A stretch of 35,865 bases of DNA from Chrysophaeum taylorii (lineage: Eukaryota; Sar; Pelagophyceae; Pelagomonadales; Pelagomonadaceae). Position numbers and translations under genes: made by a program. Position 1 is the stretch's first letter; every line of letters starts with the position of its first letter. Below, one piece after another: positions 1-30,125 of this stretch. The DNA lies in assembly GCA_029834535.1 (NCBI GenBank), contig JAQMWT010000410.1, positions 1 to 35,865 on the forward strand. Reading direction: 5' to 3'. The notes under the pieces are model-generated. The model did not search any database. It was not told the origin of the DNA and saw only the letters and a list, made by a program, of their open reading frames with translations.

Positions 1-760
1 TCAAAATCAGGGGCATCGTCAGCAACTCCGAAGTCATTTCCAGATTCAGAGATCTGTAATCGGAACGGTGCGGTCCTACGCGAAGCGGGACACGCGTAAC
101 AGTATAAGCTGCGTCTGTCGCGGCTCGTGATGATCCTAAATTGTTCATCTGAAGTAAATGTCGTTCGTCGGCGTAGCCAAGTGCTGCGAACTTGTGCTGC
201 ATATTCTTGCAAGTCTTTGGAACTGCGCGCAAATGGAGCGGATGGCTGGAAACCAACAATCGCACGCGGCAGCTCATCAAACTGGGAGTTATGTCGTAAA
301 AATTGACGACGTACACGTAAGGGTGTAAACGTGCAACGTAAGAAATAATCGAAGCCTCCTGCTCTATCAACCACATGAAGAAACCAGCCATCTTGCATAA
401 TTTCATCGTCCAGTGGGTAGCGGTGACTCCTTTCCCAACATCTCTGGAGGTCAAGTTGCACAGAGCGGAGTGTACGCAGGGTGGCGACGCGACACACATC
501 GACGACGACCATTCCGCGTAGGGTAAATAAGATTCGATCAACCGTAAGGTTGTAACATAGCGACCACACAATGTGTGCTGCACCACAGGAATATTCGGAA
601 AGTTCTTGTGGTGGATCTGGTTGGCGGTGTCCGACGCATCGAGTGCTAGCACGAAGAAACGACGTCCCACACGTTTCGTTGGCTCGTTGGAGACCTAAAG
701 TACTGCCTCCGGCTCCACTGAACAGCATCACCACCTTGCGATAAGTGATTGGAAGCCATT
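1..760 (-). pseudogene. C5-cytosine DNA methyltransferase domain of the minus-strand retrotransposon (frameshifted, C-terminus outside window)
   Basis: On the minus strand the sequence reads PITYRKVVMLFSGAGGSTLG (motif I; FSGAGGS at 722-702). After one frame change it reads VLALDAS (motif II, near 646-635), NFPNIP, VASPPC with the catalytic-type Cys codon at 478-476 (motif IV), IEQEA near 374-351 (position of motif VI, normally ENV), and SCRVRLL at 274-254 (motif VIII, normally QxRxR). The frame then stays open to base 1 through TVTR..LR.GPH, a segment also present in the plus-strand copy. Motif X would lie outside the window. The fold and reaction (methyl transfer from S-adenosylmethionine to cytosine C5) follow from the family. 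The frame change falls between motif I and motif II, near 660. The position inside a retrotransposon polyprotein, directly downstream of the protease linker, matches the other element. Confidence 0.88.
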
Positions 761-1508
761 GAACCTTTTCATATCGGCGGCGGATCTCCGCTTCGGTGAT
801 CTCGCGGCATTTCTTTTCATCTTTTCCGACCTTCGAGCGAAATCGTCGCTGCCTTCAGGTCGTTTGAGGGTGGACTTGTCCGTCATAGCGGTCGTAGCGT
901 CCTTCTGCACCGTGCTCAGCAGCATCGGCGGGGAGATTCGTCGCATCGCGTCAAGTGACTAGCGACAGAAACGGTGAAAGAAAGGTTCCCCTTGTCGTAT
1001 CCTTCTTCACATTCTTTCGTAAGTTCGTTGATCGTAGAGACGTTCAACTCATCTTCGTACCTAACGATATCACCAATCGCAAGGACTTCGCCTTGAGTGA
1101 CGACCGTCGGCACTTCTTCCGTGGCAGTAACCGCCACCCGAGCAGCGGACCGGTCGCGCTCTTCGCAAGAAGAACACATTCCTTCGACAACTCCCAACTG
1201 CTCGTTCTCAGCAAACGTAGCGACGAAAACCTGTCCTTTTCCATAGGCTTCGACAAAATAACCGGTAGATTGTACGTTCGACCGGGCTCGATTTGAAGCG
1301 TGCGCGCAGCATAAGCGATTACTTCTCGCGTCTTCTCCCGGAGCTGGGAGAATTTGGTCGTAGCATGTCCTCGCGTAGCCAAGGCTACCTTACGTTCCGG
1401 CGGCGGGCTTCGGAGATCTTTAATCGTGCTCAAACGAGCGTAAACTCGAGTCTTGACCAGGTCGAGACTCTGCCGAAGGACATCGTGTTGATGATTGTAA
1501 ATCGGCAC
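761..1508 (-). pseudogene. Protease-to-methyltransferase linker of the minus-strand retrotransposon (frameshifted)
   Basis: This piece lies between the end of the Gag-protease frame (stop at 1511) and the methyltransferase. It is read in at least three frames: 1508-1200, 1197-916 and 946-728. Short stretches align with the same part of the plus-strand element, for example EPGRTYNLPVILSKPMEKDRF against the LLPSQPYFLEMECDVPLEKGH region, and GMCSSCEE with TQGEVL against SYSSYCADEP with VEGEIM. The equivalent stretch in Ty3/gypsy polyproteins is a beta-rich spacer after the protease. The last part, before the methyltransferase, is basic and charged. No function is visible beyond being a polyprotein spacer. 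Confidence 0.6.
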
Positions 1509-1510: not shown

Positions 1511-4384
1511 TTATCGGTTTCGATCGTAAATAGACCGAAAGGTCACGATTGGTGCATCGACTCGTTCATCCTTAACTTTAATCTTCTTGCGCCCGTAGAC
1601 GACTTGGGTTCGACAAAAACAGATCCGATCATGGGGAAAATCCACGATGGCTCCTAAAACTCGTATATCGCGCCCTCCCAACAGGAACAGATAATTCGTA
1701 TCGGCTACAATAGCGACAATGGGGGCAGCGAAGTCGTCGGCGAAAGCGACCCGAAGGGCGATCCAACGATGGATCGTCGTCGTATTCAACCCTGATCCGT
1801 ACAGCTTGCGCTTAATCGGAAGTTCGCCTTCATCGAAAATCAACTGATCTTTGGTCAACTTTTTGACCATTTCTCGGCAAATATAAGAAACATCTGCCAT
1901 TCCATCGACACCGATGGTCGTCGAGAATTTCGGTCCGTCACGATTCCTGTAGATGTGACAGGCCATAAACGTTAGAGTACCCGTATCTAAACAACTGAGG
2001 GTAATCAAATCATCTTCGATCGTCTTGCCGTCTCGCGGCGTCAACGAAGTGTGAGCACATCGGGCTCTGATTCGCTCATCTCCGGGGTTGGGCATCGATA
2101 CCGCGGCTTGAGCTTTCGTATTATCTGTTGTTGGCGTCTTCGCCATAACGCTCGCGGCAGCCTCTTTCTGGCGGCTTCCGCTCTTCCTCCAAGACAATCT
2201 CAGAGGAATCAGTGCTGGTAGGGGATCCTGGTCTTCGTAGTTCACGGAAGCAAAGGACCCCTCCCATAAATCATTCATTTCGTCTTTCCAGAATGCATCT
2301 GTAAATTCATTCGTCGCCTGCTGATCCTCATCAGCATCGGCGATCGGTTCCGTGTCAGCTGCGGCTTTGAGTCTGCAGCTGCGCGGTTGTTCTGGTGGCT
2401 TCTTTAGCAAGAAATTCCGAGCTTTCGTCCACCAATCCTGCAGGTTCCACGTCGGCTCGTCTTCGTCACACTTGAGAACGCTGCTAATCTTCTTCATAAA
2501 TCTATCCTTTTCTTCCGGCGGCGTATCCGTGTCTCGATCCGTAGTAATCGAAACCGTTTCGGGGGGGTCCGCAGGAAAAGATGGCGTCGTCCCCGACGTC
2601 AACTCTGTCGTAAAATCGTCGTCTGCAATACTCGCGCTGGTCATCGTCTCGTCAGTCGAATGCGCGCACGAGCTATCACTGCAGAAATTCATGTCTGGCT
2701 CACAGCCAGTTCGGTCGCCAGCGGTCGTCTCTGGAGGGTCCAAAGATAAGCCGATGGCATCGAGGGCTTCCTCATCAAAAATAAACGGTGGGTCGTCCGT
2801 GGACGACTCGTCAAATAACGTTAACGCGGACACTGGTTCACAAAGTGTAGCTTCTTCATCTTCCGAATCTGAATCGCCTTCCCAGTATCGTGGAGCTTCA
2901 AGTTCCTCGCTCGAATCTTCGAGCTCATCGCTCGACATCTGCTCATAAATCTGTGCCAAAGACCGACGATTGGTCAGCACGTCGTTGGGTGGCTCGTCCA
3001 TCGGTGGGCGAGCAAGATCTTCGAATGCGGCCGCGGCAAGGGCGTCGGCTGCGTCGTCGGTGCGGGTGTCCTTGTTCGGGTACACCGTCACTCCTAATGG
3101 TAACTGTTGACCGCAAGGGGTCGTAAATGCGAACGTTGCAGACGACTGTCCCGAGTCTTCTCGGTAACGACCATCGTCCGAATCTCGATCGCGAGATCTT
3201 CGTCGCCGGCGGCGGCGTGAATGTCGGCTGGAGCTCCTGCTATCTTTCCGTCGGCGCTGGCACGAGCTGCTACGGCTCTTGTCGTGGCGTCGGGGGCTCC
3301 GGCTATCTCGACGGCCCGTTCGTGTCGAAGACGATCGGCCGTGTCCATCTGTTAAGTGCTGCACGGTACTCATAACCGTGGTTAGCTGCGTGCTCATATC
3401 ATTGAGTCTGCTCTGAATATCGTGAGCAGCGCTCGAACCGAAGGTGGCATTAGAACTACCGTCGTCACGCGAATGATTATCTTTCCTTTGTCGGCTCTCC
3501 CATCGTCCTCGCGAAATGGGCTTTCTGCCGTCTTTGATGTATTTGCACATCGCTACATAATAGTCGTCGGGCTCGCGGTTGCAAATGACGCGGTTCCCGT
3601 GTTCATCTTTGTCGTGGGTCGCTAAGAAAAACCCACAGTCCTTGCGTCCTCTCGAACCACTTCGGATTCTCTTCGAGGCGTAGGCTTCATATTTCGTCGT
3701 TTTCTCTTTCGTTCCCGAGACGAGCTCGTCCTCCGCGTCCAGGCGGCGGCTTCTGCGGCTTCCCGCTCGAGGGTTCATCGAGTTTCGGCTGTTCTTCTCC
3801 GCCATGGCTGTTGCGAAGTCGTTTTCGAGCCGCGTAATCAGCGACAACGTAGACGTAAACGTCTTATACGTCGTCGGGTGTCCGCTGCGCATCGTTCGCA
3901 CGCGGGATTTCAATTCGCTGGACTCCAGTCCACGTATCAAGTAAGAGATGATCTCCACGTCGTTGAGATCTCGGTTGGCCACGGAACAGTATGCCATGGC
4001 TTCTTGCTGAAATTTAATGCAATATGTATGCACGTGACGTTCTCCAGAGCGTTTCGGAACGGTCGCTTGGGTCGTGCATTGTAACTTTCGTAATGATTCC
4101 TCTGCCGTCACCGGCAGCGGACAACTCTCTCGGAAATATTTCAAAATCTTGAGGCAATACTTCTCGTTCAATCGTCGTATCCGTCGTACCACGGAACCGT
4201 ACTCCTCATCGTCGATATCCCGACGTAAATAGAAAGACGCTGGGTGATCGAGGTCTTTACACAGGTCTTCATATTTCTTTAAGTGTTCTCGAAAAATCGG
4301 TGCGACCGTGTCGCGCAGGGTCGCGGGAAGCAGATATCGGAGTTTCTCCAAGCTGAAATGGTCTTCGGCTAACGTATGCATCAC
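1511..4384 (-). CDS. gag-pro: Gag-protease polyprotein segment with SR-rich domain, 957 codons
   Basis: This is the longest intact frame of the minus-strand element. Residues 1-200 are a helical Gag/capsid-like region. At about 250-285 there is a Cys/His-containing stretch (RKDCGFF...HGNRVIC...AMCKY) that is not a canonical CCHC knuckle. Residues about 345-412 are strongly Arg/Ser-rich, like an SR splicing-factor domain. Residues about 430-680 are very acidic. The last 150 residues form a retropepsin-like domain: VDGMADVSYI with the presumed catalytic Asp at residue 827 (codon 1906-1904), then a beta-rich stretch, then FLLGGRDIRVLGA near residue 900, which matches the usual ILGxDxL motif at the protease end. 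The usual DSGA/DTGA is DGMA here, as in the plus-strand element. The frame opens upstream of its first ATG (DQFDLDAGAV precedes it), so it is probably a continuation of the Gag begun at 5153 after frame changes rather than a separate start. Confidence 0.8.
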   Translation of the reverse strand: MMHTLAEDHFSLEKLRYLLPATLRDTVAPIFREHLKKYEDLCKDLDHPASFYLRRDIDDEEYGSVVRRIRRLNEKYCLKILKYFRESCPLPVTAEESLRKLQCTTQATVPKRSGERHVHTYCIKFQQEAMAYCSVANRDLNDVEIISYLIRGLESSELKSRVRTMRSGHPTTYKTFTSTLSLITRLENDFATAMAEKNSRNSMNPRAGSRRSRRLDAEDELVSGTKEKTTKYEAYASKRIRSGSRGRKDCGFFLATHDKDEHGNRVICNREPDDYYVAMCKYIKDGRKPISRGRWESRQRKDNHSRDDGSSNATFGSSAAHDIQSRLNDMSTQLTTVMSTVQHLTDGHGRSSSTRTGRRDSRSPRRHDKSRSSSCQRRRKDSRSSSRHSRRRRRRRSRDRDSDDGRYREDSGQSSATFAFTTPCGQQLPLGVTVYPNKDTRTDDAADALAAAAFEDLARPPMDEPPNDVLTNRRSLAQIYEQMSSDELEDSSEELEAPRYWEGDSDSEDEEATLCEPVSALTLFDESSTDDPPFIFDEEALDAIGLSLDPPETTAGDRTGCEPDMNFCSDSSCAHSTDETMTSASIADDDFTTELTSGTTPSFPADPPETVSITTDRDTDTPPEEKDRFMKKISSVLKCDEDEPTWNLQDWWTKARNFLLKKPPEQPRSCRLKAAADTEPIADADEDQQATNEFTDAFWKDEMNDLWEGSFASVNYEDQDPLPALIPLRLSWRKSGSRQKEAAASVMAKTPTTDNTKAQAAVSMPNPGDERIRARCAHTSLTPRDGKTIEDDLITLSCLDTGTLTFMACHIYRNRDGPKFSTTIGVDGMADVSYICREMVKKLTKDQLIFDEGELPIKRKLYGSGLNTTTIHRWIALRVAFADDFAAPIVAIVADTNYLFLLGGRDIRVLGAIVDFPHDRICFCRTQVVYGRKKIKVKDERVDAPIVTFRSIYDRNR

Positions 4385-12409: not shown

Positions 12410-12441
12410 ACAAAACCCCTTAAAAAAGAACAAGTGCAGGC

Positions 12442-14843: not shown

Positions 14844-15362
14844 GTCCCGCATACTTATCTCCGCCCGTCAGGCACATCCCTTTCGCCCCACAAAACCAAC
14901 CACATCCTTCATGCACCACACACACACACCCCCCTCTTATCAGTCGACCTTTAAACACACCTTTTTCTACTTGAGCCTGTCAAAACCCCTTAAAAAAGAA
15001 CACAAGGAGGGGAGAATACTGAGGACGGCACAAGCAGCGCCGAGGAGCCTGGGCGCTGCCGCCAGTGTGGCGGTAGCATGGGGACCTCACGGGCGAGTCT
15101 GTGATAGTCTTCTCACCTCTAGGTGTCATTATTAAGGGGAGTTCTTAATTCGAGTCTATAATCAATTAATTTCTGACAAGGCGAATTTAGTCGCGCTCTA
15201 GAAACTTTCACACACCGTCGAATTGGATCTCCCCGATTTTTCTGCGCGTAGAGGGGCCCAAGGCGCGTCGTTTGCGCACGTAAAAACTACCTGTTGCCCA
15301 CACACCCCGACCCCTGAATTTCGGCGCGATTGTGTGGTTCTTAATCGTGGTTGTTGTTTATT

Positions 15363-15875: not shown

Positions 15876-15941
15876 AGGAAAAGCGGAAGAGACCGGTTCG
15901 CGTTTTTCGAACGTTTGGAGACATTAGGGGCCATCCTGTTG

Positions 15942-16496
15942 ATGGAATCAACAGCTCACAGCTGTTTCAACCACCCGTCGCCTGTCGATCGGCGCGCAGC
16001 GCAAGTCCACTCCGAATACCTCGCTCACGCCCGCGGCATCGACGCCATCATCCCCCAGCCGGGTACAGCACCACCGCCTGGCTTCTTGGGCCCTGTCGAA
16101 CAGCGGCTACGTAGCTACGGCACCGTCGCCGGCCTCGTCTTTGGTGCCTTCGGTGAGGCCAGCGCGGCGTGCCACGCCCTCGCCCAAACATGCGCAGAGC
16201 GCATCGCTGTGCGAACCTGGGTGGCAAGCGGCTGCGCCAACTTCACAGAGGCAAAGGCGGCCCAAACTCGCCGCATCTACCGTGAGTGGGGGATCGCCAA
16301 CGCATTAGGCCGGGCTCGCTGTGCCCTCACCGCCCTCACCCATGTCGCCGCCTCAGGGAGCCCCACCCAGGCCGCCCGATCCCAGCAGGACGTCACCCTT
16401 CGTCGCCCATACGTCCGGCGGCAGCATGCGTACGACCTCCGGGCGGGGCCCGTCCTCTCTTCGCCTGCCCCACGACTCGGCGATGACCCCGACTAG
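15942..16496 (+). CDS. 184-codon array ORF, unit 6 copy
   Basis: Same reading as units 4 and 5. It is followed after about 135 bases by the MITE insertion in the tail. Confidence 0.5.
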   Translation: MESTAHSCFNHPSPVDRRAAQVHSEYLAHARGIDAIIPQPGTAPPPGFLGPVEQRLRSYGTVAGLVFGAFGEASAACHALAQTCAERIAVRTWVASGCANFTEAKAAQTRRIYREWGIANALGRARCALTALTHVAASGSPTQAARSQQDVTLRRPYVRRQHAYDLRAGPVLSSPAPRLGDDPD

Positions 16497-16632
16497 GTCC
16501 CGCATACTTATCTCCGCCCGTCAGGCACATCCCTTTCGCCCCACAAAACCAACCACATCCTTCATGCACCACACACACACACCCCCCTCTTATCAGTCGA
16601 CCTTTATTAAACACACCTTTTTCTACTTGAGG

Positions 16633-16891
16633 TAGGGTCGGATTAGAAAACGAGACTAGCCCGCGCCGCAACGACGGGTCCTACAACGCGTGGGCTTTTT
16701 CCTTTTTTTGCGTGAGGGGACGAAAGGATGCCGACTTCACTATGGGGACTAGTTCCATCGCGACGATCTCGCGGCGTGGCGGCACATACTGCTTGAGTAC
16801 AAATGAACATAGCTCAGCGATCCGTTGAGTATGTCTTAGTACAAACTGAAACATAGTTAACGGCTCGTACGAACTTTCTTATCCGACCCTA
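16633..16891. mobile_element. 259 bp MITE-like element (copy 2)
   Basis: Same length, same terminal repeats and same insertion point as the copy at 12151, with no difference I could find by eye. The shared insertion site means it was duplicated together with the array unit rather than inserted twice. Confidence 0.75.
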
Positions 16892-17274
16892 ACAAAACCC
16901 CTTAAAAAAGAACACAAGGAGGGGAGAATACTGAGGAAGGCACAAGCAGCGCCGAGGAGCCTGGGCGCTGCCGCCAGTGTGGCGGTAGCATGGGGACCTC
17001 ACGGGCGAGTCTGTGATAGTCTTCTCACCTCTAGGTGTCATTATTAGGGGGAGTTCTTAATTTGAGTCTATAATCAATTAATTTCTGAAAAGGCGAATTT
17101 AGTCGCGCTCTAGAAACTTTCACACACCGTCGAATTGGATCTTCCCGATTTTTCTGCGCGTAGAGGGGCCCAAGGCGCGTCGTTTGCGCACGTAAAAACT
17201 ACCTGTTGCCCACACACCCCGACCCCTGAATTTCGGCGCGATTGTGTGGTTCTTAATCGTGGTTGTTGTTTATT

Positions 17275-17880
17275 CTACCCCGCATTGTCCGATCGCCCTG
17301 CGTCCTCCAGACCAGAGGGTGGAGGAAGTGCCTCGATGGTCGTTTGGCGGCCGTCTCTGGGGGGGGCTCCATGGGCGGTGTTGCTCGTCGATGTCGGCGG
17401 CGGCGGATTGCGTTTGCGTCTTTCCACCACGACATAAGCGTTCACAGCCAACAACATCACCACCGCAAAGACGATCACAGCCAACAACATCACCACCGCA
17501 AAGACGATCACACCTTTGTCGAACGAGTCGACAACTCGGTCGAACGAGTCGACAACTCGGTCAAACGAGTCGACAGCTCGTTCGACACCATTGTCGAACG
17601 AGTCGACAACTCGTTCGACACCATTGTCGAACGAGTCGACAACTCGTTCGACACCATTGTCGAACGAGTCGACACCATTGTCGAACGAGTCGACAACTCG
17701 TTCGACACCATTGTCGAACGAGTCGACAACTCGTTCGACACCATTGTCGAACGAGCCGGCAATCCTCTCCGCCTTTTTGGCGACGACGGCGGCGAGAGTT
17801 AGGGCGCCCAACGACCCCCCTATGGAAACAATGAGCCCCTCGAGCGTACGCGCCACGGCCATCGCCACGAAGAATGCCAC
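17275..17880 (-). pseudogene. Putative two-TM repeat protein, start codon lost (unit 7 copy)
   Basis: The frame and features are as in unit 6, but the change CACCAT to CACCTT removes the initiating ATG on the minus strand. The next in-frame ATG would drop a few residues (MAVARTLEG). Confidence 0.35.
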
Positions 17881-19260: not shown

Positions 19261-19264
19261 CCTT
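19261..19264 (+). other. Target-site duplication, left copy (CCTT)
   Basis: CCTT precedes the 5' LTR and CCTT (27881-27884) follows the 3' LTR. If the first T of the LTR is shared, it is the 5 bp CCTTT typical of Ty3/gypsy elements. This fixes the borders of the plus-strand element. Confidence 0.75.
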
Positions 19265-19598
19265 TGTGGCAGTAACGCCCATTTCCCCCGCTTGCCTGCC
19301 TGCCACCTGACTTACCCTGGTTGTTTCCCTGGTATTGACCTTGCATTTATGGGGGGGGGGGTGTCATTTCGACACCTTCACCTTCTCTTTTACTGGACCC
19401 AATGTACCGGGCATTTGTATTACTTTCTTGCTGTCTTCTTGATATTACCCTCATTTGATTGTCCGATTTCGTGATGGCGTGAGGTATTACGCTGAGATCG
19501 GGCGTGTGGTGGTTTCACCCGCGGTTCGGGTAGGGAGAAAGGGTTGTTGAGCCCCCCGGTCCGGTCAGGAGGGGCGGGTATCTGAGAACACCACTATA
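19265..19598 (+). repeat. 5' LTR of the plus-strand retrotransposon, 334 bp
   Basis: Starts TGTGGCAGTAACGCCC and ends CCACTATA (CCACTACA in the other LTR, so the terminal CA has mutated here). It contains an 11-G run (19351-19361), followed at once by GGTGTC-ATTTC-GACACC, a small hairpin. Near the end are a CCCGCGGTTCGGG hairpin and a pyrimidine/purine-skewed stretch. About 95% identical to 27547-27880 by eye. Confidence 0.93.
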
Positions 19599-19609
19599 GT
19601 GGTCTCAGA
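19581..19609 (+). other. Inverted repeat joining the LTR end to the primer-binding site
   Basis: TCTGAGA-aca-CCACTA is followed directly by TAGTGG-TCTCAGA: 13 paired positions with a three-base bulge, centred on the LTR/PBS border. The left arm copies the tRNA 3' end that the PBS is expected to bind (TTCTGAGA plus CCA). RNA from this element could therefore pair its own U5 end with the PBS. Confidence 0.6.
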
Positions 19610-19623
19610 AACGGGAATCGATA
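19600..19623 (+). promoter_or_regulatory. Primer-binding site (tRNA 3'-end complement)
   Basis: TGGTCTCAGAAACGGGAATC starts one base after the LTR. Its reverse complement reads as a tRNA 3' part: T-loop-like ATCGATT, T-stem CCCGT, acceptor TTCTGAG, discriminator A, then CCA. The spacing (3+8+5 bases before the loop) is exactly that of a tRNA. It is not the usual initiator-Met PBS, and I cannot name the tRNA. Confidence 0.75.
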
Positions 19624-20068
19624 GTCCAACTCCCGAACTATCGATCTCCTGTTTTTCGGCGGCGAGTCGGTTCGTAACGGTCGAGTGAGTGCGAAGCCGA
19701 CGCATTTGTGGGTGAAGATCAGGAGGATCACGGGTACCGCCGCGGGGTTCATTTTACGTGATTCGGATCGAACGGGGAGCGGAGTCACTACGACTCATTT
19801 AGGCAAACATCGTAAGACCTACGAGGCAAAGAAAGAGTAAGCCCTAACCTAGCTCGCGCGAGGCAGACCACCTCCCTGACGGCGAGCGACAACACCGGGA
19901 AGGCCGTCCATAGTCTTCACGCGCAAGGCAAGTGCTTCCGTAAGACCAGCGCACCGGTACAGAGCGCAGTAGTCAGACGGCTGCCGGCAATTGTCGTCTG
20001 ACGAAAAGAATACAACAAGTGCGCTGTGAACGTCCGGAACAAACCTATTATCCGGGCAAATCGCGGTC
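19624..20068 (+). other. 5' leader of the plus-strand retrotransposon
   Basis: Untranslated stretch up to the Gag ATG, with no convincing ORF. Its second half (about 19895-20010) resembles part of the 3' untranslated region of the same element (about 27075-27200) and includes the conserved hairpin listed separately. Confidence 0.6.
19972..20002 (+). ncRNA. Conserved leader hairpin with GCCGGCAA loop
   Basis: GTCAGACG (19972-19979) pairs perfectly with CGTCTGAC (19995-20002) across a 15-base loop containing GCCGGCAA. GCGCACCGGT lies about 30 bases upstream. The 3' untranslated copy (27161-27194) keeps the loop core and the upstream CACCGGT, while its stem has a different sequence that still pairs. 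This argues for a cis-acting RNA structure such as a packaging or replication signal, but the function is inferred. Confidence 0.55.
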
Positions 20069-22291
20069 ATGGCAGAGAGGCCAATGACAGAACGATCGCA
20101 GTGGTTTCGGGACGCACAGGAGCGTCTGCAACGATTCAGTGCAGGGACTCCATTTGCGTCTATTGGAAGAACACCGTTCAGTACGCCCTTTCAACGGCCG
20201 GAAGCCGAGGAAAGTGGCATCGGAAGAGAGGCAAGCTCATCTGATAGCCTCGACAGCCCCCCAAGCGTGGTCATCCTTCCGGATCCACGCGGCGGCGAAG
20301 GGGGAGCTGCGGTTGCGCCAGACGCAACTTCAAGACCGGGTGAGCCGACGTTCCCGTACGCACGACCCTACGAACGTGCGATGAATGCTATGGAGTCATC
20401 TCGAGCGGAACCCGGACCGTTTACGGCGATGCGTGGTCCAGAGGAGAGTGCACCTCCTAGGCCACCATCTGCGAATACGAGAGCGACAGAGTTTCGCGTG
20501 GATGTCGACCCCGAGGTTCTGCAGACCATCAACGAACGATTCGAGATGTACCAGTCGCAGATCGAGCAAGTCATACGTGAACTTGAGAACACCCGCCGCG
20601 ACGCTCAACAACAACGCTCAGAAGTGGAGCGGCAGCGGATCGACAACGATCGACTTCGGCGAATGTTGGAGGAATCCATGCGGGCGCATGCTCAAGAGGC
20701 ACAGCCAACCTCTCCGAATGCTACGCGTGTTACGCCCGACGACGATGATGACGCTGTATCGGCATTGACCGACGATCAGCCACCGCGAAGTCGACCGGAG
20801 CCTACCCCGCACCATCATACTGACCCCGGTTCGGCGCGTCCTCGTGACGAAGAAGAGATACTTCGTGTCAAGAAGGGAGCTGCTGGTATGACACGTATCA
20901 CATTTTCGAATCTCACGGGGCAAATTACCAAGGACCGTGATGAGGTGGACGCGTGGTGGATGCAATTGCGGCGTCTGATGGAAGGCAAGATTGATAAACC
21001 CTCAATAGCGACGAATGTGATTGGAGGCGAGTATCAACTCGCCCCTATGGAAGCTTATCGCAAGTGGGAAGTTGAACGGCCGCAGATGTGGAAACAATAC
21101 AAGGATGGGACCATCACAATGAAAGAGTTGCGCCAGCATGATGAGGACTGTCTGGATGCTATGCAAGAGGCGACGAAGCTTCCTTGTCCACCTCGGGCTA
21201 CGGTTGAGGAGCTTGAACGTGAATGGTTCAATTTACGGCAGGGGAATTTGTCATTGAATAAGTATATCGCGTGATGGGTGCAGAAATTCGGCCAGTGGAG
21301 AGCAATGTCAGGTCGCGATACTGATCCGGCTGCGTTCCGTTCGCACTTCATTGCTGGTCTCAATTCTGAGCGCTTGCGGACGAGCGTCGAACTTGCTCAG
21401 GCCTCACCGCATATGAAAGCATCTACTCTCACCCTCAACGATGTCATTCAATTGACCATCCAGATTTCTAAGATTCTGGAAGCCAACCCTACTGCCAACA
21501 TCGAAGATGCGATTAAGAAGGAGAAAGGAAAGGAGCACGCACCACGGATGAGGAGAGAGCAGCAGCAGCAGAGGTAGCAGTTGCAGCCAGTCCAACGGGT
21601 TGGTTATGTTACTGACTCGGGAGTTGGAACCTGGCTACCACAGGGGATAGATAACCATACGCGTCAAGCAATTACGACGTGCCTCAGTTGCGGCCGGCAT
21701 GGTAGTTTTCACCACGACAACGGTGTGTGTCCTGTGCCGGACAATCCCTCGAGGAAGAGGCGTGCTGCTCAGACGTTGACGACTGTGGGTTTTCCAGCAA
21801 CGCCAGAGGGACAGGAGCAATACCGACGGACGCTTTTAGCTGCAGCAGGACAGGCCTCAGTGACTCAGCTAGCGCCGCGCGTTGTGCAACAGCCGCAGGT
21901 GGTCTACACAGCAGCACAGGTGCCAGGTGCAGGTCAACAGCAGCTGGTTGCAGGCACTCAGCAGCGTTTGGTTGCAGGCTCTCAACAACAGGTGTTCCGA
22001 AGGCAGCCCGCAGTGCAGCGGACCGCTCAGACCTCGGTGCGCCTGGAGGATCTGACTACGGCTCTCACCACGATGAACTTGATTCGTCAGGCACAGCAGA
22101 CGGCTCCGCCGGGTAGATGGCGACAGTTTCAGAGAGCGAACCCTAGCCAGCACAATGATGGTGTCGCCGCTCAGTGGCTTGAAGTGCTTAGCGAAGATCA
22201 GGATGACACTAAGCGAGCGGATTACTGCACTGCGCAGTATTCTGAGCTCATGGAGGGCAACGTGTATGACGATGACGAGGTTGGGCGATGA
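20069..22291 (+). pseudogene. gag: Gag of the plus-strand retrotransposon (two in-frame stops)
   Basis: One reading frame from ATG 20069 to 22291, interrupted by TGA at 21272 and TAG at 21575. The first 130 residues are Pro/Ser/Arg-rich. A coiled coil follows at about residues 150-210 (TINERFEMYQSQIEQVIREL...). The capsid-like region (about 270-500) has the Gag features of Ty3/gypsy elements (REWFNLRQGNLSLNKYIA, then FGQWRAMSGRD...FIAGL). After the second stop comes a zinc-knuckle-like CLSCGRHGSFHHDNGVC with irregular spacing (C-x2-C-x6-H-x5-C). A Gln-rich tail follows (AGQQQLVAGTQQRLVAGSQQ, a 10-residue repeat). A frame change near 22285 leads into the protease frame. It would form the particle core. 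Confidence 0.82.
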
Positions 22292-22841
22292 TGATAGTTT
22301 CTCTGCAGAAGGCTATTCCCCTGGTGACCCCATGGAACCTCCTTCCTTTTTGGTCATCACTGAAGATGCATGGGTGGAGGAGCAGGAGCAAAGTGCCGAA
22401 GTGACTGGAGTTGCATCTAGAGTTCTCTCGGAAGACGAAGATAATCGTGACGAATTGGGGTATACGATTGTTCGTGTCGGACAAGATACCTTGGTTGTCG
22501 TGGATATAGTGCCACCGAGGGACGACTGTGCCGAGCGTTATGTTGCTCACCCTTCCATCTCTTCGGATTTCGAGAATTTCTGCCCTCAGACTGCGTTGAA
22601 TATCACTCAGGATCCCGACCATCGTGAAAATAAAGCCGTAAGGTACGATGGCACGAGATCCGCCTCTTTGACATATGTGCCTGTGGCTATCTCTTCGCAA
22701 GATGGTTCGAAATATTCCATCATCGCTGCCGGTTTGGATGGCATGGCTGATTCCCCCTACATCGATCACCGCTTGTATCGCAAACTTGATCGTGACGGCA
22801 AATCATCTATCGTCAGCCACTCCCTACGATTCGTACTCTAA
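22155..22841 (+). pseudogene. pro: Protease N-terminal part, plus-strand retrotransposon
   Basis: The frame is useful from about 22280, where the Gag frame ends (GDDDSFSAEGYSPGDP onward). An acidic lead is followed by a retropepsin-like half: YSIIAAGLDGMADSPYI with the presumed catalytic Asp at 22737-22739, then HRLYRKL. DGMAD replaces the usual D(S/T)GA, exactly as in the minus-strand element. At about 22800 the frame shifts by -1 into the next frame. Proteases of this type cut the Gag-Pol polyprotein and work as dimers. Confidence 0.75.
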
Positions 22842-22882
22842 ATGGGTCAGGAGGTTCGGGAGCTGCTATTCGAGAATGGGTC

Positions 22883-24490
22883 ATGCTCCGGATCTCCTTG
22901 GTGCCGACGACATCCATGCTGCTCATGTTCTTCGTTGGTCAAACGAATGGGCAGTTACTATTAGGAGCACGAGAATTACGACTCTTGGGTACGATCTTGC
23001 ATTATGCGACAGAGAGAGCTATTTTTCGGCGTTCTGAAGTGACCATTGGAGTTCTCAAGAATCGGACTTCCGCCTCGCCACAAGACCAGCATGGAATTGT
23101 TCTTTACAATGATGCATTCGATGCGACTCCGCAGGTAGTGCAGATGTTCCCGACAGCTAAGCTTGCTGTGCAATACGGAAATATCCAAACTTGGACGCCA
23201 GTTGGTAAACCGTGGAGTTATGACAGTCTACTGCGCTCTATTCGTATTAGAGCGAGTCACCATCACGTTCCTCCCGGTGATCAGACTGCTGAAAAAGCTG
23301 AAGACCAACTTGAATGCCCTGCAGACGAGGAAGATATCATCCCTCATTTCGCGTACGTGACGAGTACTCGATTTCTTCTTCCAAGCCAACCGTATTTCTT
23401 GGAGATGGAGTGCGATGTGCCGCTGGAAAAGGGTCACGTATTCCGACCTTATCGGTCACTCCTCCTAGATCTCTGCATTGTACCTGGTTCCTATTCATCG
23501 TATTGTGCTGATGAGCCCAACGAAGTTCATGTGGCTGTGGAGCACATTGGTGACGAACCTATTGGTATCGACCCCGAAGTCCCCGTGGTCGAAGGCGAGA
23601 TCATGCCGCATGAAGGATGTGTCAACATGCAGTTAGAAGCCACTGATGACGTGTGTCATGCCACTCTTACGGCTGCTGTTGACGACGATGAAGTCGAGGA
23701 TGATGTCTTGAAAGACAGACCTCCTCCTCAGCCACCTCCAGATGAAGAAGTGAAAAAAACACCAGAAATGGAGATGGAGGCGACTGTTAAGGAGCTGCTA
23801 TCTAAGCACGCCTCCTTGGTTTGGATACCCATCACCTACACCCTTGTCGTCGTCTACTTTGCTGGCGCTGGAGGATCAACGTTGGGTATCCGGCGATGCA
23901 ATGAGCTATATGGCAGTTCATTTCGCATTGTCCTGGCTTTGGATGCTTGTCCTCAAGCCCGAACCACCTTTGAACTCAACTTTCCGAAGATTCCCTATGT
24001 TTTGCATGAGCTGGGTAAATCTCATCGTCGTACATACGACTTGGTGTTGTCGTATTTACACTCAGATTTTTGGAAGCACTCTTATTTTCACGCCAGTCCG
24101 CCGTGTATCTATGGATCGACTGCCAATTTGCACTACAGGGACGCACGCAAGGGCGCTACTATTACTTCTTGGGTCCTGCGTCATTTCCGCAACGCACCTT
24201 TTGTGATTGGACGATGGACGCTCGAGCAGGAACCATCAGTGATCCCTTTTGTGCATCACCAATTTTATGTGCCGCGTATTGTTGATTTCTATAGTATCAC
24301 GCCAAAGCTGCTGTGCTCGCGCACGCGCCTACTTGCATGCAATGTTCGCTTGGAACTGCCGTTATTATCGCGTGTACCACCGAATTTACGGGACCGTTTT
24401 GGCCCAGCGTTGGGATTTACAGGTGGTCACCCGCTCATTATAGTGAACAGTTTCTCATCTACGCGGCTATCGGCCCTGCCTTCACGGTGA
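22883..24490 (+). CDS. pol: Protease C-terminal part, linker and methyltransferase motifs I-VIII (535 codons)
   Basis: The frame is open from about 22797, so the first ATG is not a true start. The reading begins IRTLNGSGGSGAAIREW and runs to QLLLGARELRLLGTI, which align with YGSGLNTTTIHRW and FLLGGRDIRVLGA of the minus-strand protease. A spacer of about 280 residues follows, acidic towards its end. From about residue 318 comes the methyltransferase: PITYTLVVVYFAGAGGSTLG (motif I, FAGAGGS at 23858-23878), VLALDACPQARTTFELNFP (motif II region), ASPPC (motif IV, Cys codon 24104-24106), LEQEPSV (position of motif VI) and SRTRLL (motif VIII, about 24317-24334). The frame ends in a stop, while the domain continues one frame back in the overlapping ORF. 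Confidence 0.85.
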   Translation: MLRISLVPTTSMLLMFFVGQTNGQLLLGARELRLLGTILHYATERAIFRRSEVTIGVLKNRTSASPQDQHGIVLYNDAFDATPQVVQMFPTAKLAVQYGNIQTWTPVGKPWSYDSLLRSIRIRASHHHVPPGDQTAEKAEDQLECPADEEDIIPHFAYVTSTRFLLPSQPYFLEMECDVPLEKGHVFRPYRSLLLDLCIVPGSYSSYCADEPNEVHVAVEHIGDEPIGIDPEVPVVEGEIMPHEGCVNMQLEATDDVCHATLTAAVDDDEVEDDVLKDRPPPQPPPDEEVKKTPEMEMEATVKELLSKHASLVWIPITYTLVVVYFAGAGGSTLGIRRCNELYGSSFRIVLALDACPQARTTFELNFPKIPYVLHELGKSHRRTYDLVLSYLHSDFWKHSYFHASPPCIYGSTANLHYRDARKGATITSWVLRHFRNAPFVIGRWTLEQEPSVIPFVHHQFYVPRIVDFYSITPKLLCSRTRLLACNVRLELPLLSRVPPNLRDRFGPALGFTGGHPLIIVNSFSSTRLSALPSR

Positions 24491-24700
24491 CGCGCAATAA
24501 GCTCCGCTTAGGACCTCATTTCTCGAACACCCGTCCACTCACATTACAGATGCACCAGGGAATTATGACCGTTCCTGTTACGTGGCAATGGGGTGCGACA
24601 GTTTCCGAGACAGTAGCTATGAAGATGCTTGGCAGTATGGTGCCACCCGCGACTATGACGCGGATTGCGCAAGCAGTGCACAATTCGTTTGGCCCTTCAC
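23836..24700 (+). pseudogene. C5-cytosine DNA methyltransferase domain (spans a -1 frame change)
   Basis: The complete domain can be followed across two overlapping frames. Motifs I to VIII are read in the first frame up to about 24465. In the next frame AAIGPAFTVTRNKLRLGPH and a short target-recognition-like stretch follow, then GSMVPPATMTRIAQAV at 24631-24678, which matches motif X (GNxVPP and following helix). The switch is placed near 24465 because the minus-strand copy reads SSRAATDAAYTVTR without a break there. No slippery heptamer is visible, so a one-base deletion is more likely than programmed frameshifting. The domain is about 285 residues, with a short target-recognition region. 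The cysteine of motif IV is followed by Ile instead of the usual Gln, and motif VI has EQE in place of ENV, with the catalytic Glu kept. Confidence 0.88.
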
Positions 24701-26985
24701 TTCGAAATTTGGGTAAGTTGCGGAATATTGCGACGACTACGCTAGCCCAACCTGATCACCATATTCTACGGTTTTCACCTTTTGCTGTAGAGTCGCGCAT
24801 TCCAACGCTCGACCCTGCCACTCGAAGTGTATCATGGATTGCGCCCGATGAACTCTATTCTCCTGCGAGTCCTGCACCATCAGCTGCTGCCACCACCACC
24901 CCGCCACCGCCTTCAGTTACATCGCCTGGAACGGCTTCATCTTTTGCAGGGAGCACCGTCGCCACTGCTGTTATGCAGAGCAACCAAGTTGATAACCAGC
25001 CCTCCGCAACTGCTGAAGAAGAAGGCACCGCGAAAGAGCGACCAGCGTATTTCAATACGTACGACGTTCCGTGGGCGGACGCGCCTCAGGATGAACATGG
25101 TCAACCTTCACCGGTGATGCCTCCCCATTTAGCGGATCAGGAGAGCATGCAGGTCATCCCTCCGACCGTCGCGCAGGTCGAAGAGGTGATGACCGAATTG
25201 GGTATTACAGAGCATCCTGCTTTAGATGATGACGAGAAGCTGATGATGAAGCATTTAATCTCGTATTCGTGGGCATTTTTCGATGATGTGATGAGACCTG
25301 TTGATTCACCTGAAGTGACGCTCCGGTTCAAAGAAGAGAACCCGACTCCCGTCAAACTCTCACCATATCGGTTGTCGAAAGAAAAGATTGAATGTTTGCG
25401 GATGCAGATTGAAGCATGGACCCGAGACGGAGTTATTCGTCCCGCGAATTCTCCATGGGGTTTCCCTATTTTGATGTTGCCTAAGAAAGGTGCTGAGCCT
25501 GGCACTTCCAATGCTTACAGAGCAGCTGTCGACCTACGGCGCCTCAATGCATTGCTCAAGGATGATAGCTGGCCGAGTGTGAGCATGGCTGACGCGTTGA
25601 TGTTTCTCATTGACAAGTTTTGTCGTTCCAGTTTGGATATTCGTTGGGGCTATCACAATTTACGATTGTCGCTGGATGCACAAGATGTGGTCACCTTCAC
25701 TAGTCCTCTGGGAGCGTACAGCTACATGCGTCTACCTTTGGGAGTCAAACCAGCCGGAAGTTTGTTTTGCAAGCAGTTGAACACTGACTTGTCGCGATGG
25801 CTATATCGTGATCTCATGGCATATATCGACAATATTCTCGCCGGTCACGCAGATACAAAGAATCACTTGCAGTGCCTTGTGCAAGTTATTCCCCATCTCG
25901 CCTTGAAGGGGTACAGCGCCAAGATCAAGAAGATTCATTTTATGCAAGAAGTCATTGAGTTTTTGGGTCATTTATCTACCCCGAACGGACTTCTTCCATC
26001 ACGAAGATCTTTAGAAGCTATCAGACACATGCCAATTCCTGGCACTTTGTCGGATGCTGACCCTAAGAAGCAAGTGCGATCTTTCCTTGGAATGGGGAGC
26101 TTTTGCCGGCGTTATGTAAGGAATTTTGCGAAAGTTGCAGAACCATTAAGACAACTGACGTTGCCGCACGTGAAATTCAAGTGGACGAAAGAGTGTCAGG
26201 AAGCTTGGGATGCCATCATCGAGGCTATTGTCACGTCGAAGGGCGTCTACCATCCTGATTACTCGTTGCCTTTTTACATTCGAACTGATGCTTCCGCGCA
26301 TGGGTTGGGTGCTTACCTATTTCAAAAAGTACCAGTCGTTGACGACGATGGAAGAGAAAGAATCGAAGAGAGAGTTATCGAGTACTGGAGTCGAACCGTG
26401 CCTAAGTCGATGAGGAAGTATGATCCTCGGCGCTTGGAACTCCTCGCAGTACTCTCTGCTCTCGAAAATTTCCGATTTTATATCGAAGGTCATCAGACGA
26501 AGTTAGAGACGGATCATCGTAACTTAACGTTTCTGCGGGATTCGAATCATACGTCTGGACAGTTAGCACGATGGGCTATGCGGCTTGCTGCGTTCGACCG
26601 GGAGCTCGGATACAAACCTGGAAGCTCCCCTGGCATGCGTATTCCGGATTGTCTGTCGCGCATCCCTATCGACAAATTGATCGAGAAAGATGAAGACGGG
26701 GAACCGATCAATGAAGCTTTTTTGATTTTCCAAGAAATCCCCACCGATGTCCCTGGCACCGCTTGCTTCATCTTCTCTTCGATGGCGATGCCTATGCTGA
26801 CGGACAGCGGACCCACCGCAGCTATGGTAGCAGTTAGTACGCGACAGAACGTACAACCGCCTCAATTCTCGTACGATTCTGAGCCAGTTGACTCCGTCGA
26901 ACGTCTCCCTTTTGCGGATCAAGCGGAGGATGAGATCACTGTCGATGAGATAGCGAAAGAACAAGCTGGCGGATTCGGACGTTGA
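24313..26985 (+). CDS. pol: End of methyltransferase, reverse transcriptase and RNase H (890 codons); RT active site mutated
   Basis: Residues about 50-125 finish the methyltransferase. Residues about 190-300 are a Pro/Ala/Thr-rich spacer. RT follows: SPWGFPILMLPKKG, AAVDLRRLNALL, SSLDIRWGYHNLRL (first catalytic Asp present), YSYMRLPLGVKPAGSLF, then YIDN at residues 504-507 (25822-25833) where YxDD is expected, so the second metal-binding Asp is Asn. RNase H of the Ty3 type follows: TDASAHGLGAYL (Asp 659), RRLELLAV, KLETDHRNLTFL (Asp 734), and YKPGSSPGMRIPDCLSR at its end. The frame stops soon after EITVDEIAKEQAGG, where integrase would normally begin. It would copy RNA to DNA inside particles. 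As it stands RT should be inactive. Confidence 0.9.
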   Translation: MLAHAPTCMQCSLGTAVIIACTTEFTGPFWPSVGIYRWSPAHYSEQFLIYAAIGPAFTVTRNKLRLGPHFSNTRPLTLQMHQGIMTVPVTWQWGATVSETVAMKMLGSMVPPATMTRIAQAVHNSFGPSLRNLGKLRNIATTTLAQPDHHILRFSPFAVESRIPTLDPATRSVSWIAPDELYSPASPAPSAAATTTPPPPSVTSPGTASSFAGSTVATAVMQSNQVDNQPSATAEEEGTAKERPAYFNTYDVPWADAPQDEHGQPSPVMPPHLADQESMQVIPPTVAQVEEVMTELGITEHPALDDDEKLMMKHLISYSWAFFDDVMRPVDSPEVTLRFKEENPTPVKLSPYRLSKEKIECLRMQIEAWTRDGVIRPANSPWGFPILMLPKKGAEPGTSNAYRAAVDLRRLNALLKDDSWPSVSMADALMFLIDKFCRSSLDIRWGYHNLRLSLDAQDVVTFTSPLGAYSYMRLPLGVKPAGSLFCKQLNTDLSRWLYRDLMAYIDNILAGHADTKNHLQCLVQVIPHLALKGYSAKIKKIHFMQEVIEFLGHLSTPNGLLPSRRSLEAIRHMPIPGTLSDADPKKQVRSFLGMGSFCRRYVRNFAKVAEPLRQLTLPHVKFKWTKECQEAWDAIIEAIVTSKGVYHPDYSLPFYIRTDASAHGLGAYLFQKVPVVDDDGRERIEERVIEYWSRTVPKSMRKYDPRRLELLAVLSALENFRFYIEGHQTKLETDHRNLTFLRDSNHTSGQLARWAMRLAAFDRELGYKPGSSPGMRIPDCLSRIPIDKLIEKDEDGEPINEAFLIFQEIPTDVPGTACFIFSSMAMPMLTDSGPTAAMVAVSTRQNVQPPQFSYDSEPVDSVERLPFADQAEDEITVDEIAKEQAGGFGR

Positions 26986-27546
26986 GCGGATTTTTGTGGG
27001 TCTCAAGACAAAAAGCGAGCCCAGGAGACCACCCACAGTCTCCGAAAAGAGGCAGAAAGAAGGCCGGAAAGACCAACCATAGTCTCTGAGACCAACCAGA
27101 GTCTCTGGCGAGGCAAAAGGCTTGTGCCGTGTAAGTCCGTCGCACCGGTCAACCGCGCAAGTCGAACAGTAGCCGGCAAATTTTGCTGCTCGACGAGAAG
27201 TTTTGGTGTTCGAGATAGCCGTTGATATCCGAGAGAAACCGCACCTTGGAAACTAGAGGAGACTGGCGTTTGTTTTGCGACCGCTTCTGCTGAAGAATGA
27301 TGCTTAAGACCAGAAGACAAAGACCACGATGGAGGTAGATTCACTCGCCTACGAACGAATATGGACGGCTGTGAACCTTGTGCCTGACTTTCGCCTGAAT
27401 GAAATTGATGTCCTCGTCAGTAACTTCGGCCTCCACAGCAACAAAGTTCCTGCTGATGTAGCTCACCGAGCTTATCGTACCATTCGCGAGCGTGACCTTC
27501 GTCACCCTTGAAGTCGAGGACGACTTCATCTGAAGTAGGGGGCTCC
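26986..27546 (+). other. 3' untranslated region of the plus-strand retrotransposon; integrase absent
   Basis: The 561 bases between the pol stop and the 3' LTR hold no integrase zinc-binding or DDE motifs in any frame. The stretch 27040-27120 has three copies of an AGACCA(A/C)CC(A)-AGTCTC-type repeat. The stretch 27075-27200 resembles the 5' leader. A purine-rich GAAGTAGGGGG ends four bases before the LTR and may serve as the polypurine tract. Confidence 0.7.
27161..27194 (+). ncRNA. 3' copy of the conserved hairpin
   Basis: GTCGAACAG (27161-27169) pairs with CTGCTCGAC (27186-27194), eight of nine positions, around a loop containing AGCCGGCAAATTTTG. It is preceded by GCACCGGT. See the leader copy at 19972 for the comparison. 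Confidence 0.5.
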
Positions 27547-27880
27547 TGTGGCAGTAACGCCCATTTCCCCCGCTTGCCTGCCTGCCACCTGACTTACCCT
27601 GGTTGTTGCCCTGGTATTGACCTTGCATTTATGGGGGGGGGGGTGTCATCTCGACACTTTCACCTGCGCTTCCACTGGACCCAATGTACCGGGCATTTGT
27701 ATTACTTTCTTGCTGTCTTCTTGATATTACCCTCTTTTGATTGTCCGATTTCGTGATGGCGTGAGGTATTACGCTGAGATCGGGCGTGTGGTGGTTTCAC
27801 CCGCGGTTCGGGTAGGGAGAAACGGTTGTTGAGGCCCCCGGTGCGACCAGGAGGGGCGGGTATCTGAGAAAACCACTACA
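27547..27880 (+). repeat. 3' LTR of the plus-strand retrotransposon, 334 bp
   Basis: TGTGGCAGTAACGCCC to CCACTACA, with the 11-G run at 27633-27643. The differences from the 5' LTR are substitutions only, clustered in the CACCTGCGCTTCCACTGG segment and near the end. Confidence 0.93.
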
Positions 27881-27884
27881 CCTT
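27881..27884 (+). other. Target-site duplication, right copy (CCTT)
   Basis: Matches the four bases before the 5' LTR. The flanks 19260 and 27885 were therefore adjacent before insertion. Confidence 0.75.
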
Positions 27885-28424: not shown

Positions 28425-29234
28425 AAAAATAGAGATAGAAAACTCCATTTAGGGTTAGGGACTCCCCTACTGTCCCCCTTAACAACTAACTAACTTCAGA
28501 CCTCTCCTGAGCATGGGAGCCAGGCCGGACCGGCAGGAGCCGGTACGGAATCACAAAGAAAATCACGCAGTTGGGGCAGAGGCGAGGGACGAGGACGGAC
28601 TTGTTGATGGTGGACCGCCACTGCGCGCGATCTTGTGCGAGGTCGTGCAAAAGCGTCGCAGGCCGCGGACGTGTTGGTCCACGAACAATCGACCTGTCCG
28701 TCGCGTTCTGCCCAACCGAGCGAACTCCATCCCAGCGCGGACTTTCCGGGTGCTAACCGGCCAGCCCGGGAGGCGAGCAGGCACCGTCTCACTCCGGGAC
28801 GGCCGGGGCCGCCGCAGGGAGCAAGCGTGTTAGGCGTCGTCCTCCATCGCAACCAACGGTTAGCGATCGCAGGGTTAACATCACACTTACAACCACTAAA
28901 TCGCTGTGTCGCACACCGTGCTGCTCTTTGTGTCGTTAGCGGACAGGACGAAAGGCAGCACTACCACTGCCACGATTCTCTACCATAGGCACAGTGATTT
29001 TTTCTGTTCTCTAGGTTTGGACCCAGTCCGGTACTGGTAGAGAAACGTCCTCCGAAAGACATCGATCTCGATCGACGTCTCGGACAAAGGCTCAGGATTT
29101 CCAGGCAAGAGCAATCTCCTGAAGTTCCTGAAAGTTTTAAGACCGTAGTCAAGTTTCATCGCTTGCTACTGGTGAAAAAGTGTGAAAAAGTGTGAAAGGC
29201 AACCAACAACGCGCAAAACGCAACCCCGAAAACG
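28425..29234. other. Unassigned sequence before the 29.2 kb ORF
   Basis: 28500-28850 is GC-rich and open in several frames on both strands without a recognisable product. At about 28988-29010 a TTTTTTCTGTTCTCTAG/GT is a good 3' splice-site match. At 29172-29200 GTGAAAAAGT is repeated. None of this supports a firm gene call. Confidence 0.3.
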
Positions 29235-30125
29235 ATGGCGACTCGCGACCAACAAGTTCCGAGTCTGGAATCAGCGAAGCCATTCGCTACACCACAAGAC
29301 CCACAAGCTTTCTGGCAGCCGCTCAAACAACTCCTAGATGATATCTTAGATCAACACGCCGCTGATAATGCTGCCTTGCACGCCAAAATCGCTGCTGGTT
29401 ACGCTGATCTCAGAGCCAAACTCACTGCCGCAAATGATCAAGACGAGCAACTCGATCAAGAAGTGCAACTCGATCAAGACGAACAACTTGAACAAGCTCC
29501 CCAACCAGCTGTTCATACGGCAACTCCCCTCAAGAACAAGCAAACTTCTCACGAAGTCGCGACCCAAGACCCGATCATCTCGATGCTCACCCCCCCTCAT
29601 GCCGACAACCCCACTGGATGTCAAACACCCCACGGCAAAGTCTCAGACCCAACTGCCTTCCCTCCGGACCCAGGCATAGCCAAGGTTCCTCCACAACCTG
29701 GCACACCCCACATTCACGAGGACACTCCAACTTGTTCAAATATCGCACCAGCAATGTTGAACACACCACCGCCAATAAACATTACTCCCTTCACTCCACA
29801 CCCACCGGAGCCGCCACCTCCTTCACTGGAGCCTAACTCCCCACTATCGGCGACTCCCGCGACACCACATATACAAGTTCCCCAACATCCTCGTCAACCC
29901 TCTCGCCGCACTACTCATCTTCTTGATGATCATGCCATATACGGCCATGACGGCCCCGGCACCTTCATCCCCGATCACCGCGGCTCACGCTCATGCCGCC
30001 CCACTGTCGGATTCCCTTGTCCGATATCCATCATCTCCCGCAAGTCACTCTCCTCAGGACTTTCCTCTCTATCCACAAGACCATGCCACCTACGGCCACG
30101 ACGGCCCCGGCACTTCCATTTATAG
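29235..30125 (+). CDS. Hypothetical protein, coiled-coil N-terminus and Pro-rich body (296 codons)
   Basis: ATG in a good context (AAAACGATGGCG). Residues 25-70 are helical (QPLKQLLDDILDQHAADNAA). Next is a short acidic repeat, three copies of an (L/E)DQ(D/E)(E/V)QL unit at about residues 72-90, then 150 residues rich in Pro, Thr and His (HTATPL, TPHIHEDTP, FTPHPPEPPPP). At about 235-250 the first DHAIYGHDGPGTFIP motif occurs. After it the frame appears to shift by +1, because the next, similar repeat is in another frame. An N-terminal coiled coil with a Pro-rich body is seen in some Gag proteins, but there is no capsid or zinc-knuckle signature. Unknown. Confidence 0.45.
   Translation: MATRDQQVPSLESAKPFATPQDPQAFWQPLKQLLDDILDQHAADNAALHAKIAAGYADLRAKLTAANDQDEQLDQEVQLDQDEQLEQAPQPAVHTATPLKNKQTSHEVATQDPIISMLTPPHADNPTGCQTPHGKVSDPTAFPPDPGIAKVPPQPGTPHIHEDTPTCSNIAPAMLNTPPPINITPFTPHPPEPPPPSLEPNSPLSATPATPHIQVPQHPRQPSRRTTHLLDDHAIYGHDGPGTFIPDHRGSRSCRPTVGFPCPISIISRKSLSSGLSSLSTRPCHLRPRRPRHFHL

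Follow-up and report, generated by a model that had tools for sequence, protein, structure and literature searches.

Retroelements of the gypsy, DIRS, and long interspersed nuclear element (LINE) classes bearing a DNA methyltransferase (DNMT) have been in print since 2018 (PMC5890265). A later DNMT survey, from 2025, named long terminal repeat (LTR) Copia and DIRS elements in streptophytes and dinoflagellates (PMC12344493). In yeast, the SymbioDIRS DNMT domains carried out de novo CG methylation, and those of KnitGypsy and SymbioLINE were negative, a result described by the authors as inconclusive (PMC5890265). A comparable element has now been analysed in a 35,865-nucleotide stretch of the Chrysophaeum taylorii genome (contig JAQMWT010000410.1, positions 1 to 35,865, hereafter the window), where a Ty3/gypsy LTR element on the + strand (19265-27880) has LTRs framing a gag-like region, a segment in the place of the protease, a putative C5-cytosine methyltransferase (MTase) domain, and a reverse transcriptase (RT)-RNase H. 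Taken whole, the best explanation, at a probability of roughly 0.6, is a C. taylorii gypsy lineage with a captured C5-MTase between the gag/protease-like part and the RT, methylating its own DNA. The anatomy of this lineage and the purifying selection on its MTase are held with near certainty; self-methylation of the element DNA, taken by itself, falls a shade below even odds. A first-pass annotation, made from the DNA letters alone, had proposed such a capture and pointed to algal precedents for LTR elements with an MTase; the precedents are in print (PMC5890265), and the proposed capture is supported here, with a C5-MTase that precedes the RT in the pol of a gypsy LTR element, is multicopy, and is under purifying selection.

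KnitGypsy-Dnmt3 of Klebsormidium nitens likewise has a C5-MTase in the pol frame of an algal LTR gypsy element, occurs in several intronless copies with the catalytic residues kept, and is under purifying selection (published Ka/Ks below 0.2, against 0.067 here), but it carries a DNMT3-class enzyme and a DIRS-type repeat structure, whereas the C. taylorii element has ordinary direct-repeat LTRs (PMC5890265). The host here, moreover, is a stramenopile, C. taylorii being a pelagophyte alga. Judged by FAGAGGSTLG, ASPPC, and its profile matches, the C. taylorii MTase looks like a bacterial or phage DCM-type or a Dnmt2-like enzyme, and by its motifs appears to stand apart from DNMT3, the ASPPC of motif IV being unlike the DNMT3 form. 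The SymbioDIRS-Dnmt3 and SymbioLINE-Dnmt elements of Symbiodinium offer a second parallel, with hundreds of retroelement DNMTs per algal genome and more than one capture; SymbioDIRS-Dnmt3 is also pol-embedded in its DIRS element, and the Symbiodinium host likewise has DNMT5 (PMC5890265). These elements differ in belonging to tyrosine recombinase or LINE classes, in a dinoflagellate with most CGs methylated (PMC5890265), where the compact 71-Mb genome of C. taylorii has gypsy and a second retroelement family. Some DIRS elements have likewise captured a DNA MTase, in this case a Dam-like adenine enzyme that is structurally unrelated (PMC5890265). Among the top-ranked titles and abstract openings, in some cases the best 10 to 20 of hundreds of matches, none described retroelements with an MTase from pelagophytes, a search whose scope excluded preprints and most subscription papers. 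A word search of the main text of PMC10366177, the source for the published C. taylorii assembly, found no word starting with “transpos” or “repeat”. As far as seen, the stramenopile lineage, the apparently non-DNMT3 type of the enzyme, and its place before the RT in an ordinary LTR gypsy element are new, as is the probable occurrence of several captures within a single small genome.

All seven C5-MTase motifs that the first-pass annotation had listed are present in the window translation in the order it gave, FAGAGGSTLG, ALDA, NFP, ASPPC, EQE, and SRTRLL in the open reading frame (ORF) 22883-24490 and GSMVPPAT in the ORF 24313-26985. When aligned by tblastn to the MTase domain of L033, a related locus, the window domain resolves into a front part with motifs I to VIII (23783..24484, +; 82.9% to L033 domain residues 1-234), in which FAGAGGSTLG stands at about 23858-23887, PPC at about 24098-24106, and EQE at about 24224-24232 with SRTRLL after it, and a rear part with motifs IX-X in another frame (24466..24666, +; 73.1% to residues 230-295), with GSMVPPAT falling within 24628-24666. 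Because these pieces score only 17.4 (front) and 15.4 bits (rear) against PF00145, each under the curated cut-off of 22 bits, the window alone would fail a strict profile test. The PF00145 search that had been recommended at first pass was answered instead by the open MTase-pol frames of relatives, all three scanned being over the cut-off as whole proteins (L031, 33.0; L034, 30.8; L033, 28.2 bits), with the qualification that these scores are sums over several short stretches, no single one of which reached E 0.01. The frames extend over 1815 (L031), 2129 (L034), and 2098 aa (L033) in the fetched stretches; that of L033 contains the MTase, RVT_1, RT_RNaseH, and H2C2, together with an rve that at 29.4 bits falls just short of its cut-off of 32.6, in a single open frame showing the RT - RNase H - integrase order of Ty3/gypsy pol, that of L034 also has RVT_1, and that of L031 stops before a complete RT.

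Other profiles agree with this assignment. Druantia DruM2 (PADLOC PDLC00033; E 3.8e-10 for L033 and 7.5e-11 for L031) and phrog_116 (E 5.5e-9 and 6.8e-10, respectively) were the top-scoring families in their two libraries, although the best stretch covers only motifs I-IV and both are bacterial or phage enzymes and not domains of a retroelement polyprotein. In hhalign, a 23-row profile of the MTase matched a 17-sequence Dnmt2-type profile (probability 96.0, E 3.8e-9) over motifs I to IV, pairing motif I and SPPC; as Dnmt2 is the only C5-MTase class compared profile-to-profile, the match does not single out Dnmt2. By eye, the catalytic Cys of the motif IV Pro-Cys is present in 22/22 covering alignment rows, and motif VI reads EQE in 20 of the 22 (EHE in L024, QQE in L014), its first Glu being kept in 21. 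Although the subfamilies share no more than 38% identity, at least 90% of rows keep the PPC, EQE, and R-x-R residues. Because the profile matches are joined by conservation in two subfamilies, window 23783-24666 is predicted from its sequence to encode a C5-cytosine MTase domain in a gypsy pol, well beyond chance.

Relatives were searched for in one C. taylorii genome (70.8 Mb on 697 contigs, beside 71 Mbp on 702 contigs for the assembly in print, PMC10366177). The 535-aa window frame gave 89 matches, and the L033 MTase gave 141 match rows, merging into at least 124 loci. A second gypsy-MTase subfamily stands on the − strand at the left end of the window, where the window edge cuts it, and comprises an MTase piece with the motif I variant FSGAGGSTLG (657..797; tblastn 55.3% to L033 MTase residues 1-47), a further piece with ALDA, NFP, ASPPC, EQE, and CRVRLL (11..652; 37.8%, E 1.4e-47), and a gag-pro-like frame (1511..4384; 30-31% to L033/L034 pol; no Pfam match). 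The MTase of this subfamily shares just 38% identity with the L033 enzyme, with the motif set kept, and two queries combined (the second of 100 aa, each with at least 150 matches) place the subfamily at no fewer than 223 loci. One locus on C676, counted among the 124, lies nearer the second subfamily (83%) than L033 (42%) and is, by eye, the only one common to both match lists. LTR pairs are also seen in L031 and L032, two of six long stretches. That the motifs arose by chance, or belong to an unrelated adjoining gene, has negligible probability: the window pieces alone do lie under the Pfam cut-off, but the three scanned open frames lie over it, 70 of 96 RT-RNase H rows among the matches listed have an MTase at a similar upstream distance (3.5 kb or less, same strand), and contig C5 has a 3063-aa and a 3067-aa frame, each with a second-subfamily MTase and an RT together.

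Selection was gauged by pairwise NG86 ratios of non-synonymous to synonymous substitution rates (dN/dS); as dS varies by segment, from a low of 0.42 to a high of 2.0, and is partly near saturation, the ratios are approximate, and sequence exchange between copies possibly affects them. Between L033 and L031, dN/dS is 0.067 for the MTase (front half 0.051, recognition part 0.095), 0.224 and 0.383 for the linkers upstream and downstream of it, 0.295 before the protease (PR)-like part, 0.086 for the PR-like part, and 0.048 for the RT N-part. L033 and L032 gave 0.063 (MTase), 0.101 (PR-like), and 0.215 and 0.399 (linkers), and L033 and the window copy 0.342 (linker), 0.036 (RT), and 0.048 (RNase H). 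Across 91 pairs of 14 loci of the main subfamily, mean dN was 0.020 and mean dS 0.081; L033 and the left-edge MTase differ by a dN of 0.705 with dS saturated, so that no ratio is available. Domains and linkers nevertheless contrast clearly, and since its dN/dS is near that of the RT and far under those of the adjoining linkers, the MTase is under purifying selection nearly as strict as that on the polymerase. A catalytically idle MTase, kept as a fold for DNA or cofactor binding or for polyprotein spacing, might be suspected from the EQE of motif VI in place of ENV and from the weak Pfam scores, yet it is decidedly improbable given a catalytic Cys kept in every covering row, PPC, EQE, and R-x-R residues retained across so distant subfamilies, and a front-half dN/dS of 0.051 against 0.22-0.38 in the linkers.

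The window copy has the outline expected of an LTR-bounded element, as the first-pass annotation had it. The 5′ LTR (19265..19598, +; 334 bp, starting TGTGGCAG) and the 3′ LTR (27547..27880, +; 334 bp) match over 332 bp at 95.8% identity (5′ LTR against 27547-27878); by eye, both begin with TG, the 3′ LTR ends in TACA, giving the TG...CA termini, the 5′ LTR closes with TA instead (terminal TATA), and a 4-bp target-site duplication CCTT flanks the element (19261..19264 and 27881..27884). A gag-like ORF (20069..21274, +) continues in other frames to about 22279; the region 20102-22279 matches residues 5-746 of the L034 open frame by tblastn (38.7%), and no Pfam gag family was matched there in the Pfam scan. 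Downstream of the MTase, again as annotated, lie the RT and RNase H (25396..26718, +; RVT_1 44.7 bits, RT_RNaseH 90.4 bits; 92% to the L033 RT-RNase H). The stretch that follows (26985..27546, +) is devoid of an integrase core, only the last pol part remaining (27304-27457): residues 1563-2046 of L033 pol are unmatched in the tblastn map between 26964 and 27304, and L033 carries H2C2 and rve at the place of this gap. As the MTase reading frame breaks near 24466-24484 (tblastn), the RT motif reads YIDN (YIDD in L031 and L033), and the integrase core is missing, the window copy is, by its sequence, evidently a dead, broken family member that can no longer perform the proposed methylation. Inside the stretch replacing the integrase, 27020-27200 resembles by eye the leader behind the 5′ LTR (19920-20010) and may have been left there when two elements recombined, although no BLAST match between the two was obtained at E 1e-5.

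The segment upstream of the MTase had been annotated as a retropepsin, and release of the MTase by this protease had been proposed; neither claim could be upheld, because the segment matches nothing in Pfam, even with the threshold relaxed to E 10, and reads DGMAD rather than DTG/DSG, which leaves the protease itself unconfirmed. The unverified retropepsin-like segment of the window (approximately 22626..23135, +; tblastn map of L033 pol residues 111-280) reads LDGMAD where DTG/DSG is expected, and later LLGARELRLLG; its second-subfamily counterpart (1523-2149, −) reads VDGMAD, and the Pfam negative covers the segments of L033, L034, and the left-edge element. The DGMAD motif is thus common to both diverged subfamilies (e.g., L033:3784-4506 and window 1523-2149, −). 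Strong constraint on the segment (dN/dS 0.086) argues that it has some role, either as an unusual retropepsin or as another protein.

A PF00145 search of the genome, which may miss genes with many introns, returned 57 matches over the cut-off, namely L037, L038, and 55 others. Twenty-eight of the 55 were retrieved (L039-L066), every one a member of a single repeat family, family B (e.g., L053:1324-2886); of the remaining 27, 16 coincide with or adjoin a family-B match, leaving 11 unassigned. Family B comprises 92 loci and shows a DGGASFCFTR segment, an MTase (TLPCQH, ENVPP, SKTRY), and then, by eye, a segment resembling the start of an integrase, an order that suggests a Ty1/copia-like element. 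A search for its RT with RVT_2 (PF07727) was filled by other copia RTs: all 150 scored matches were Ty1/copia-type RTs over the cut-off, in a genome crowded with copia elements. The front part of the family-B MTase has a dN/dS of 0.116-0.161 across six pairs drawn from four copies. Conservation extends as well to residues 291-521 of the aligned region (0.067-0.161), and a profile comparison of the family-B MTase with the gypsy MTase found no similarity. More than one MTase capture has probably taken place in this one small genome. Around family B, two further observations were made: a copy of the LTR of the window element (95-97%) adjoins a family-B MTase piece at L049:2840-3169, as a nested insertion or a solo LTR; and window 28430-29740 has stretches 73-94% identical to parts of some family-B MTase loci (e.g., L041, L051, L056, L046), a pattern that sharing or nesting of small repeats would produce.

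Two of the 57 matches look like host genes. L037 is Dnmt2-like, and its 360-aa match to CTAYLR_008533 of C. taylorii is without a single difference; its contig, C634, also has a second-subfamily MTase match. L038 appears DNMT5-like, matching at E 3e-143 the PDB entry 7r76, which was deposited as Rad8 and is a fungal DNMT5. In fungi, DNMT5 is known only for maintenance methylation.

The remainder of the window holds features apart from the MTase elements. Between about 5.7 and 18.7 kb lies a tandem array of seven copies (6043-17383), with a unit of mostly ~1.55-1.6 kb, successive spacings of 1593, 1575, 1572, 2988, 1554, and 1912, and, within the unit, GTCGACAACTCGTTCGACACCATT-type minisatellite repeats whose number varies between copies. 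The right third has long C-rich frames, one of which was scanned with no Pfam match.

As to function, the MTase would ride in the virus-like particle together with the RT, and once packaged would methylate the newly made DNA of the element, or the DNA at its insertion site; the host DNMT5 would copy such a mark onward, and new copies would then resemble already silenced, tolerated DNA. On sequence grounds, element DNA, host DNA, and RNA are all candidate substrates. It is rather unlikely, though worth stating, that the retroelements and not the host own de novo C5-methylation in Chrysophaeum, the element enzymes seeding marks that the host DNMT5 copies; at least some 430 MTase loci in two or more unrelated-looking retroelement families stand against two host-like MTase genes.

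A number of observations weigh against a captured, self-methylating MTase. Transitions between nearest copies are hardly enriched at CG (0.0318, against 0.0277 at CH; ratio 1.15; 26 family-A pairs, 30 loci), the family-B ratio is also 1.15 (20 pairs, 28 loci), and the transversion CG/CH ratios in the nearest-copy comparisons are about 1.2 and 1.1. With no excess of CG transitions, the comparison of copies gives no sign that CpG methylation has long been in place; CpG decay, tested as a mark of self-methylation, was not seen, and the first-pass suggestion that the element escapes CpG-based loss found no backing. This result would be compatible with methylation in a different context, with efficient repair, with methylation of very short duration, or with action on RNA. 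The CpG observed/expected ratio is mixed, at 1.035 in the window element and 1.463 in the left-edge element, with 1.03-1.08 across the window element, L031, L033, and L053, lower than the 1.258 and 1.458 of two host-gene loci. Relatives without the domain, raised at first pass as a point against the capture, may exist: alongside the 70 RT rows with an MTase, 26 of the 96 have none upstream among the matches listed; some of these loci may be truncated, interrupted, or missed in the list, and others may be gypsy elements of this lineage without an MTase. The Pfam scores are weak and summed, motif VI reads EQE in place of ENV, and the KnitGypsy DNMT was without activity in yeast, inconclusively for its authors (PMC5890265). 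Structure models of both MTases were poor (pLDDT 37.3 and 29.6, from shallow alignments), and Foldseek with such a model returned no match at E 0.001 or better, its best rows at E 1.1e-3 being DNMT3A, DNMT2, other S-adenosylmethionine enzymes, and an unrelated top row; these fold matches are not counted as evidence. A sequence search of solved structures with the MTases gave only 8yf3 (E 0.49 and 0.24) or nothing. A large protein set yielded no match to the MTase parts at E 1e-3 (829 and 1660 candidates), which says little on other species because the host's own element copies were likewise not returned. The viral contigs searched held no relative at E 1e-3, and a phage search gave one weak match, a cyanophage C5-MTase (E 7e-4).

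Two alternatives share the capture and differ in the substrate. Action on RNA, either the primer tRNA of reverse transcription or the element RNA, in the manner of Dnmt2 on tRNA, would agree with the missing CpG mutation signature between copies and with the alignment to Dnmt2 through a common SPPC motif (E 3.8e-9), Dnmt2 itself having produced no DNA methylation in the published yeast controls (PMC5890265). It is nevertheless unlikely: Dnmt2 was the sole class compared, the profiles of bacterial and phage DNA MTases match too, and where activity has been published for a retroelement DNMT, DNA was the substrate (PMC5890265). Methylation of host DNA in trans, which would quiet competing elements or DNA viruses or loosen host silencing, is no more probable than action on RNA; hundreds of MTase copies could alter the host methylome, and antiviral roles have been proposed for retrotransposon MTases (PMC6338049), but a selfish element would gain little from effects in trans, and an MTase that sits in pol would be packaged with the RT.

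The C. taylorii lineage extends retroelement-borne cytosine MTases to a stramenopile alga and to an apparently non-DNMT3 type. Because the host has DNMT5, known in fungi only as a maintenance enzyme, C. taylorii would let the origin of new methylation in DNMT5 organisms be asked directly. It also raises the question of why an element carries the very type of enzyme that is used to silence elements.

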